From contig CAMSZT010000020.1 of NCBI GenBank assembly GCA_947066815.1, positions 1-54,269 of the forward strand: a stretch of 54,269 nt of DNA. Direction: 5' to 3'. This document shows, in pieces, positions 4,956 to 48,116 of the stretch. Numbering within the stretch: position 1 is the stretch's first letter; the number at the start of each line of letters is the position of its first letter. The stretch comes from an uncultured Lachnotalea sp. GTDB lineage: Bacteria > Bacillota > Clostridia > Lachnospirales > Lachnospiraceae. The notes beneath the pieces were generated by a model, which made no database searches, had not been told where the DNA came from, and was given only the letters and a program-made list of their open reading frames with translations. The translations under genes were made by a program, and so were the position numbers.

Positions 4956-4992
4956 ATATCACACCGGCCTTTCCGTTTTCTACAGTTTATTC

Positions 4993-5164
4993 CGTCTCCG
5001 TCAGGAATCAGCAGTTTTCGCAGACACGTTGATTTTTTGATTTTGCTGCGCCGCCTATTGTCATCGGACTGCCTTCCATCAAATCGGGTCAGACAGTCCG
5101 ATGACGCTATACTCGCAAAATCTGCCTATCGTCTGTTGCAAACAGCTGCTTCCTGACGGAGACG
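4993..5164. repeat. fold-back element family A, copy A1 (short form)
   Basis: 172-bp element with near-perfect terminal inverted repeats: CGTCTCCGTCAGGAA at 4993-5007 pairs with TTCCTGACGGAGACG at 5150-5164. Inside are the conserved core CGCAGACACGTTG, a GATTTTGC / GCAAAATC pairing, and a central hairpin GTCATCGGACTG / CAGTCCGATGAC. Compared with copy A4 (47.8 kb) it lacks about 93 bp holding two further hairpins. It sits inside the fatty-acid operon, between accC and accDA, the only copy not at gene 3' ends facing each other. Its outer right arm continues into the last codons of accC. Confidence 0.85.
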
Positions 5165-5175
5165 TCTTAAAATAT

Positions 5176-6501
5176 TCAGCCACACGGGTGGAAATATCGT
5201 TCTATAAAGCCCGTATCCACCGGCCCGGCCTCGTAAACCGGGTGGGTAAAGATCTCGTACTGTTCATCCAGGTTCGTCTCCACGCCCTCGATGACCAGCT
5301 CCCCCAGGGCGCACTGGATCTTTTTCAGGGCCTCCGCCCGGTCCTCCCCGTGGGCGATGAGCTTTAAGAGCATGGCATCATAGTAGGGGGGCACCGCACA
5401 GCCGTTATACATGGCCGTGTCCACCCGGATCCCCATGCCTCCCGGCACCAGAAGGTTTTTAAGCTTCCCCGCCACCTTCGCATTGATCCTGCACTCGATG
5501 GCGTGACCGGAAAGCCGCACCTCCTCCTGGGAAATGACAAGAGGCTCCCCCGCCGCAATGCGAAGCTGAGCCTTGATCAGGTCGATGCCGGTCACCGCCT
5601 CCGTGACGGGATGTTCCACCTGGATCCTCGTGTTCATCTCGATAAAATAATAATGGTTCTCCTTGTCCAGGAGAAATTCCACCGTCCCGGCGTTCTCGTA
5701 TCCGGCGGCCTTCGCCGCCCGCACCGCCGTCTCCCCCATCTCCCGGCGGAGGGCTTCCGGGACCCACGCCGAGGGGGCCTCCTCGATGAGCTTCTGGTGG
5801 TTCCTCTGGACGGAACAGTCCCGCTCCCCCAGGTGGATCACGTTCCCGTGCTCGTCGGCCAGGATCTGGAACTCGATGTGCCTGGGGTTCTCCACATACC
5901 GCTCGATGTACATGGTATCGTCGGAAAATCCTTTGACCGCTTCCCGCTGGGCATTCAAAAAGCCGGACGCAAGCTCCTGCGGATTTCTGGCGATGCGCAT
6001 GCCCTTGCCGCCCCCGCCGAGGGCCGCCTTGACCATCACCGGATACCTGACCGCCTCCGCCGTCTCCTTCGCCTCTTCCAGAGTCCGCACCGGCTCCCGG
6101 CCTCCGGGAACCACGGGGATTCCCGCCTGGATCATGGTGTTCCTGGCCTCCGCCTTGTTCCCCATCTTTGCGATCACCCGGCTGTCCGGCCCGATAAATT
6201 TGATGCCGCAGAGGCTGCAAAACTCCGCAAATCTCGCATTTTCCGAGAGGAAGCCAAAGCCCGGATGGATGGCGTCCGCCCCCATGGCCACCGCCGCCGA
6301 CAGGATCCGCTCCATGTTCAGATAGCTGTCCTGGGACTTGGCCGGCCCGATACAGATGGCCTCATCCGCCAGCAGAGTGTGGAGGGCTTCGCTGTCCGCC
6401 TCCGAATAGACGGCCACCGTCCCGATTCCCATCTCCCGGCAGGCACGGATCACACGGACCGCGATCTCCCCCCGGTTGGCGATCAACACCTTGTTAAACA
6501 T
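5176..6501 (-). CDS. accC: acetyl-CoA carboxylase, biotin carboxylase subunit
   Basis: ATP-grasp enzyme that carboxylates the biotin on AccB with ATP and bicarbonate. The N-terminus MFNKVLIANRGEIAVRVIRA, the glycine-rich ATP loop GGGGKGMRIA, the HIEFQILADEHGNVIHLGERD segment (split by position about 208-232), and EMNTRIQVEHPVTE are intact. The length of 441 residues is normal. The gene lies 13 bases after fabZ. The last residues, HPCG and the stop, are encoded by the outer arm of repeat A1, so the repeat supplies the end of the reading frame. Confidence 0.97.
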   Translation of the reverse strand: MFNKVLIANRGEIAVRVIRACREMGIGTVAVYSEADSEALHTLLADEAICIGPAKSQDSYLNMERILSAAVAMGADAIHPGFGFLSENARFAEFCSLCGIKFIGPDSRVIAKMGNKAEARNTMIQAGIPVVPGGREPVRTLEEAKETAEAVRYPVMVKAALGGGGKGMRIARNPQELASGFLNAQREAVKGFSDDTMYIERYVENPRHIEFQILADEHGNVIHLGERDCSVQRNHQKLIEEAPSAWVPEALRREMGETAVRAAKAAGYENAGTVEFLLDKENHYYFIEMNTRIQVEHPVTEAVTGIDLIKAQLRIAAGEPLVISQEEVRLSGHAIECRINAKVAGKLKNLLVPGGMGIRVDTAMYNGCAVPPYYDAMLLKLIAHGEDRAEALKKIQCALGELVIEGVETNLDEQYEIFTHPVYEAGPVDTGFIERYFHPCG

Positions 6502-26022: not shown

Positions 26023-26037
26023 CTAAATTTACTGACG

Positions 26038-26305
26038 AAAAGCGCCCTCTGATTTCCTCCGCAGACACGTCGGTTTTACCGATTTTGCTCCGCCGCCTGT
26101 TACAGGCCATTCCCGCTACTATAGAAGCTGGCAGCGAAATGGCCTGAGCTATGCAAGGCACTAAGGCTCGAAAATACCTCGCCAAGAGCCTTTACATGTA
26201 TCGCACGTAAGCGCCCAAAAGACGAGCGCTGAGTGCTCATAACGATGCTCGCAAGATCGGCAAACCCTTCCTATCGTCTACTTGAGGAAATCAGGAGGCG
26301 CTTTT
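26038..26305. repeat. fold-back element family A, copy A2 (full form, divergent stem)
   Basis: The ends AAAAGCGCC..CTGATTTCCTC (26038-26059) and GAGGAAATC..GGCGCTTTT (26284-26305) pair over 22 positions with two imperfect pairs. This stem has no sequence similarity to the CCGTCAGG stem of A1/A4, but the interior is homologous: CGCAGACACGTCGG, GATTTTGCTCCGCCGCC, a central hairpin ACAGGCCATT / AATGGCCTG, GCAAGGCACTAAGGCTCGAA, ATGTATCGCACGTAAGCG, ATAACGATGCTCGCAA and CCTATCGTCT. It fills the space between the convergent serpin and IclR genes. Confidence 0.85.
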
Positions 26306-26351
26306 CTGCAATTCAGGTGAAGCTCAGCCGATTTATTCAGCCTGCCTCCAG

Positions 26352-30472: not shown

Positions 30473-30556
30473 AATTTCCATCTGCGCGGTTGAGGGTTTT
30501 CTATGTCTCCGTCAGGGAGCAGAACAAGACGCTCCAACCGCACAGGTGGAAAGATT
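30473..30556. repeat. fold-back element family A, copy A3 (mini form, convergent terminator)
   Basis: Outer arms TTTCCATCTGCGCGGTTG (30475-30492) and CAACCGCACAGGTGGAAA (30535-30552) pair with two imperfect positions. The left half continues TATGTCTCCGTCAGGGAGCAG-like, matching the right flank of copy A4, but the core is gone. A-rich sequence before and ATTTTTT after the stem make it a bidirectional terminator between aroE-like (plus) and the ferredoxin gene (minus). Confidence 0.82.
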
Positions 30557-47780: not shown

Positions 47781-48116
47781 AAAATTTCCACCTGTGCGGT
47801 CAAAATATTATATTTTGTCTTCGTCAGGGAACAGCCATTTGAAGCAGACGATAGGCAGATTTTGCGAGCATCGTTATAAGCACTTAGCGACCGTAGTCTG
47901 GTCGCTTACGTGCGATACATGCAAGGCACTTAGCGAGGTCTTTTCGAGCTTTAGTGCCTTGTATAGCGTCATCGAACCGGCTGACCCGATTTGATGGAAG
48001 CAGGTTCGATGACAATAGGCGGCGCAGCAAAATCAAAAAATCAACGTGTCTGCGAAACTGGCTGTTCCCTGACGGAGACATGCAAAATCTTCAACCGCAC
48101 AGATAGAAAATTTTTT
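47781..48116. repeat. fold-back element family A, copy A4 (full form)
   Basis: Outermost arms TTTCCACCTGTGCGGT (47785-47800) / ACCGCACAGATAGAAAA (48094-48110). Inner arms GTCTTCGTCAGGGAACAGCC (47817-47836) / GGCTGTTCCCTGACGGAGAC (48060-48079). Inside, read on this strand: GACGATAGGCAGATTTTGCG, hairpin AGCGACC / GGTCGCT within GCAC / GTGC, hairpin AAGGCACT / AGTGCCTT, hairpin GTCATCGAACC / GGTTCGATGAC, CAATAGGCGGCGCAGCAAAA, CAACGTGTCTGCG. It occupies the whole space between two convergent genes; A- and T-runs outside make it terminator-like. Confidence 0.88.

Follow-up and report, generated by a model that had tools for sequence, protein, structure and literature searches.

The element A4 is one copy of a palindromic, mobile-looking repeat family of Lachnospiraceae from gut and rumen, which reaches up to dozens of copies per genome. 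A4 lies in the window, the whole 54,269-nt stretch of DNA from an uncultured Lachnotalea sp. that was analysed here. The family is new and belongs with the MITE-like palindromic repeats; its conserved folded core is unusual. The matching changes in its stems look RNA-like, but may owe as much to copying of one arm from the other at the DNA level, and the covariation by itself does not demonstrate RNA selection in this family.

A sequence-only reading of the window had described a multi-copy, multi-hairpin intergenic family with paired sequence changes. That family is real and its paired changes are very strong. Copies A4 and A2 are in opposite orientations, the segments named in that reading are common to both, and the stems differ. 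The proposed pairing of GATTTTGC with GCAAAATC was found in the sequences and the folds, as was the stem that is AGCGACC/GGTCGCT in A4 and AGCGCTC/GGGCGCT in A2. Positions 47781-48116 fold at -151.4 kcal/mol, against a mean of -88.3 for shuffled sequences (z -13.4; 0 of 100 shuffles as good), and A2 (26030-26315) gave a z of -6.9 (0 of 200 shuffles as good). In A1, the left terminal repeat is recognisable and the right one is not. All three copies of the sequence-only reading are present, but the same genome has about 41 such places, so the family is far larger than it had suggested.

Table 1. Features of the family in the window, and loci elsewhere with close pairs of copies.
Feature	Position or locus	Strand	Remarks
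Copy A4	47788..48106	+	319-bp palindromic element; terminal inverted repeats of CCACCTGTGCGG type
AAAATTT flanking A4	47781-47787 and 48107-48113		both sides
A4 core	47844..48053	+	GCAGACGATAGG to ACGTGTCTGC; 210 nt, optional two-hairpin module included
A4 two-hairpin module	47872..47964	+	optional; within the core
A4 apical hairpin P3 and following segment	47968..48027	+	P3, GTCATCGAACC...GGTTCGATGAC, at 47968-48013; AATAGGCGGCGCAG segment after P3
Copy A2	26038..26305	-	other subfamily than A4
A2 two-hairpin module	about 26153-26245		
Copy A1	about 4985..5191	-	A4 subfamily; without the two-hairpin module
Deletion derivative	about 30478..30549	-	A4-subfamily outer arms and terminal repeats, without the core
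Close pairs of copies	L231, L236, L242, L249, L252, L262, L266, L294, L298, L308, L331, L340, L346, L348		

Used as a DNA query against its own genome, A4 gave 75 matches, and highly similar copies occur at unrelated loci (92, 89 and 95% identity over A4 positions 1-313, 1-313 and 174-319, respectively). An alignment of 18 copies folds into 56 pairs, 38 of which have compensated double changes. The covariance-model search that the sequence-only reading had proposed was run with a model (R1) built from these 18 aligned, folded copies, and returned 59 matches in the window's own genome, with E-values down to 1e-36. Once 18 antisense rows are removed, these represent 41 distinct places, some of them partial. 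Among 61 genomes (own included), nine had R1 matches: 7 of 11 in the genus, 2 of 26 others in the family and 0 of 24 in other families. One of these genomes, G007, has at least 45 R1 matches. A second model (R2), from 88 matches (alignment A3), was applied to a family-wide sample, in which six candidates per genome were scored, and matched 27 of 397 genomes (own included) and 26 of 334 genera. In an order-wide sample, it matched 9 of 392 genomes (own included), one of them with a weak match outside Lachnospiraceae. The single-contig genomes G315 and G224 contain 32 and 9 matches, respectively. At least 115 stretches of named genomes carry a pattern made of two core segments, which is also present in the cultured Eubacterium ramulus ATCC 29099 and [Eubacterium] cellulosolvens LD2006. 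The titles of those listed name Lachnospiraceae, Blautia, Eubacterium, Lachnoclostridium and unresolved Clostridiales, Eubacteriales or Bacillota.

The same two-segment pattern had no match in viral contigs at the sensitivity used, and A4 had none in plasmid and phage records at the sensitivities used. Comparison with Rfam (release 15), also proposed earlier, identified only tRNAs above the gathering threshold in the window. A permissive Rfam search of five loci (E up to 5) gave 11 hits, all below gathering and implausible. HEARO and omega-RNA had no Rfam match at gathering in the window and none in the five loci. The titles and abstract openings of the open-access literature searched contain no description of this repeat family.

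An outer stem of variable sequence, some 25 bp long, closes the core, which measures about 130 nt. Within the core, two sets of opposed segments are conserved and partly unpaired: GACGATAGG faces ACGTGTC and, as a second pair, GAGCATAGC faces ATAGGCGGCG. With at most one mismatch per segment, the second pair was found in 21 of 29 distant loci. The apical loops are of at least two types: 14 of those 21 loci have a motif resembling TTTGAGC/GCGAGTTT, and one has the GACCCGGTTTGATGG-like motif that is the commonest type in the window's own genome. Judged by eye, the GACCCGGTTTGATGG-like type is also present in L171 and L194, which fail the one-mismatch criterion; the stretches examined for L179 and L185 miss the element. 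The optional two-hairpin module (AGCACTTAGCG...) is nested inside the second segment pair. Besides A4 and A2, it was noted for L005, L008 and L012; A1 lacks it, as does the copy in genome G004 at the A2 site. Mini-copies at L214 (G010:C45:40400-40800) and L046 retain the outer stem and the first motif and have lost the interior. In UBA4348, the outer arms at L231, L235, L247, L251 and L276 contain a GGGGACAGTCC-like sequence, which may resemble REP or IS ends.

In an alignment of 88 copies (86 distinct), standard pairs fill 95.8% of 4798 cells (68.8% after shuffling), and double changes occur in 50 of 56 pairs. The covariation value is 0.738, compared with 0.215 for shuffled and 0.10-0.13 for slid alignments. 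All of these figures are flattered, because the alignment was fitted to the model. G-U pairs are in excess across copies (46 vs 23 in P1 and 33 vs 4 in P3), which weighs against the explanation preferred below, though a single column pair holds 21 G-U cells. Truncated and deletion-derivative copies occur, as they would under ordinary inverted-repeat decay or among chance palindromes that form no family. This reading is refuted by the R1 matches with their low E-values, the pairing kept across copies and the core-pattern stretches in named genomes, and we regard it as practically dismissed.

The A4 subfamily is MITE-like, with terminal repeats and 8-bp flanking duplications. Its ends are CCACCTGTGCGGTTG-type terminal inverted repeats in 23 listed copies, a count in which we kept four copies that look spurious or partial (spans of 417, 177, 106 and 90). 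Outside the CCACCTGTGCGG ends, the 8-bp AT-rich direct repeats of these 23 copies are 63% identical, against 52% for re-paired flanks (p 0.0006), the end of the element having been placed after the sequences were viewed. At other widths the test gave p-values of 0.012 (7 bp), 0.16 (9 bp) and 0.54 (10 bp). Seven of the 23 copies match at 8/8 positions, three of them with non-palindromic repeats (AAAAAATT, AAATTATT and AAATTTTT), and A4 itself matches at 6/8. These flanks also match significantly as inverted repeats, at each width tested (6-10 bp), as expected if the arms were later homogenised into the flank. Direct repeats are demonstrated for the A4 subfamily only; the other subfamily and the copies in other genera had no readable ends at the sites compared.

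No transposase was identified in a by-eye inspection of the A4 matches in its own genome for a partner with the same ends. Y1 transposase (PF01797) was detected in 9 of 20 element-carrying and 11 of 17 element-free genomes. A Y1/RAYT partner was rejected, as there are 0 PF01797 matches in G000, G007 and G315, which all have many copies and the last of which is one contig. The copies in G315 have no replication-strand bias, with 17 in the direction of the leading strand and 11 against it when four of the 32, near the inferred origin and terminus, are left out.

Comparison of flanks identified 13 orthologous pairs with matching sequence on both sides, distributed over 11 sites. In three of the 13 (L002/L103, L060/L138 and L092/L149), the core of one copy is inverted with respect to the shared flanks; others have the same orientation and paired changes. 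At the A2 site the element is present in G000 and G004, the latter with a module-less copy between the same genes, and G010, the closest genome by identity at that site, has none. In G006 and G007, a plain long terminator-like inverted repeat lies between the same two convergent genes. At further sites the element is absent, internally deleted or present in tandem. At L216 (G009:C249:7150-7850), there are two tandem copies, against one in G000. Clean empty sites were not found for the second subfamily, where either the intergenic DNA was replaced or the copy was internally deleted.

Between orthologues, the four core motifs differ at 20 of 330 positions (10 pairs), compared with 99 of 673 for all loop positions and 215 of 2068 for all stem positions (15 pairs), a constraint that is inflated because pairs were chosen for both copies still being recognisable. 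In the 12 same-orientation pairs for which both flanks were measured, the left 150 nt of flank are 28-67% identical in nine and 91-100% in three, and the right 150 nt are 64-100% identical in all 12, so the element clearly exceeds just one of its flanks in conservation. Sequence comparison thus qualified suggests that the core segments are under constraint and have a selected role. The core may act in a sequence-dependent way, possibly as RNA.

Gene context was parsed for the 57 of 63 copies with enough flank, orthologues among them: 23 are ++, 14 --, 15 convergent and 5 divergent. A fixed sense in 3′ UTRs was rejected on the 23 ++ vs 14 -- copies. Divergent contexts make up 5 of 57 for the copies and 11 of 41 for junctions with gaps of at least 60 (window, L195 and L196), both counts resting on a crude, purpose-made ORF caller. 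Copies within 500 bp of each other are arranged divergently in 14 cases, in tandem in three and convergently in none (one duplicate removed), and those 500-1500 bp apart are divergent in four (one duplicate removed) and convergent in two (851 and 959 bp); the pairs counted include related ones. No consistent gene was found between divergent pairs in the loci examined. In several genomes, another long inverted repeat (GTGCACC...GGTGCAC) surrounds a close pair.

The sequence-only reading took covariation as an argument for selection on structure, and proposed that the element might be a new structured RNA or a hairpin mobile element. Mobile features are present in the A4 subfamily. RNA selection is not established by the covariation, given double changes rich in transversions and the inversion of the core in place. 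Among single stem changes in 15 orthologous pairs, pairing was kept in 43 and broken in 54; among double changes, it was kept in 44 and broken in 13. The double Watson-Crick changes in 10 orthologous pairs comprise 23 transversions and 19 transitions, several in runs, whereas an RNase P RNA control (7 pairings drawn from 8 genomes of the genus; the 8 sequences folded to a consensus) had 12 transitions and 0 transversions (Fisher p 0.0005). When both were folded in the same way as single sequences, the two readings gave 39 transitions to 48 transversions and 38 to 49 for the element, and 16 to 0 and 18 to 1 for RNase P. With RNase P reduced to four disjoint pairings, the counts were 5 to 0 (p 0.02) or 6 to 0 (p 0.009), and each change was read twice. 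The comparison is limited by the few double changes in RNase P, by genomes common to several pairings and by lower divergence (89-96% identity in RNase P pairs, mostly 79-92% in the element), and repeated substitution may therefore explain part of the transversion excess.

A contrast in wobble pairs had also been counted against RNA selection. Single changes in the element lead to G-U vs A-C in 56 vs 41 cases (p 0.08), and RNase P under its consensus fold gave 37 to 6. Under matched folds the element gave 54 to 36, close to the 59 to 40 of RNase P, and we withdrew the contrast as an artefact. With its loss, our confidence in the preferred explanation set out below fell a little, from fairly good to slightly favourable, and that in an RNA under selection rose a little within the unlikely range. 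The core inversions and the share of transversions fit template switching; it is these, and not wobble, that support it, and selection is still compatible with them. In outline, PMC8604942 attributes both the homogenisation of arms and the inversion of the spacer to template switching, and PMC8794818 indicates that RNA hairpins can be created and maintained in this way.

Our preferred explanation, which we hold to be somewhat probable, is that these are non-autonomous palindromic dispersed repeats with a conserved folded core, spread as MITEs and with arms homogenised by template switching. Copies would spread through a transposase encoded elsewhere. In place, template switching during replication would copy one arm onto the other, which would keep the hairpin near-perfect while its sequence drifts, and would sometimes flip the core. 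Reading of the folded or cruciform form by a protein, or by transposition itself, would explain why the core segments are retained. It is rather unlikely, though worth serious consideration, that the family is instead a structured RNA under selection, with copies transcribed from their own promoter or by read-through and a folded RNA that works in trans or in cis, for example as a terminator, a decay barrier or a protein-binding RNA. The high pairing and covariation of the model-fitted alignment point to such an RNA, as do the constraint on the core motifs in place, the two segments recognisable in most distant loci, the position of 52 of 57 copies next to at least one gene 3′ end, and a G-U to A-C ratio that resembles RNase P under matched folding. 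Against it, transversion double changes are common, and orientation to neighbouring genes is variable and flips between orthologues.

More doubtful is a new folded nucleic-acid class, in which a dedicated protein would read the core (GAGCATAGC/ATAGGCGGCG, GACGATAGG/ACGTGTC and, in many genera, the TTTGAGC/GCGAGTTT apical motif) and the arms would form a self-repairing palindrome, held near-perfect and flipped in place by replication, with structure inherited without stem sequence. By analogy with attC logic, the element could be a single-stranded DNA fold on which a recombinase acts, a reading consistent with conserved core segments alongside variable stems and with copies that invert and delete; the lack of strand bias in G315 and of Y1 transposase in the three many-copy genomes makes it improbable.

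Several known kinds of repeat share features with the family. MITEs and the modular BOX and RUP repeats have terminal inverted repeats, short direct repeats at their ends and optional internal modules, all of which are found here; the difference is that here internal segments are common to many genera and stems have no common sequence. REP/RAYT systems likewise consist of intergenic palindromes, sometimes paired, but the Lachnospiraceae element is much larger and the Y1 transposase is missing from the three many-copy genomes. Integron attC sites likewise combine conserved unpaired bases with variable stems. By description, the nearest described kind that we found is the bcr1 type. In the outline given by PMC3446304 and PMC6542083, the bcr1-bcr3 repeats of the Bacillus cereus group (BCRs) are intergenic, MITE-like and 100-400 bp long, bcr1 averages 39 per strain, and BCR mobility is associated with a TTTAT motif (PMC6542083). 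Compared by description only, both families are intergenic, multi-copy, MITE-like and confined to one bacterial group; they differ in host group, and the TTTAT-associated mobility is a feature of the BCRs.

The matched RNase P control shows that an unmatched control can mislead, as one of two contrasts vanished under it. The family itself is a large one for which no Rfam match was found, in a major bacterial family of gut and rumen. If template switching is the true explanation, it would be a natural case of extreme covariation arising largely at the DNA level, and a warning for RNA discovery that treats covariation as proof of RNA function.
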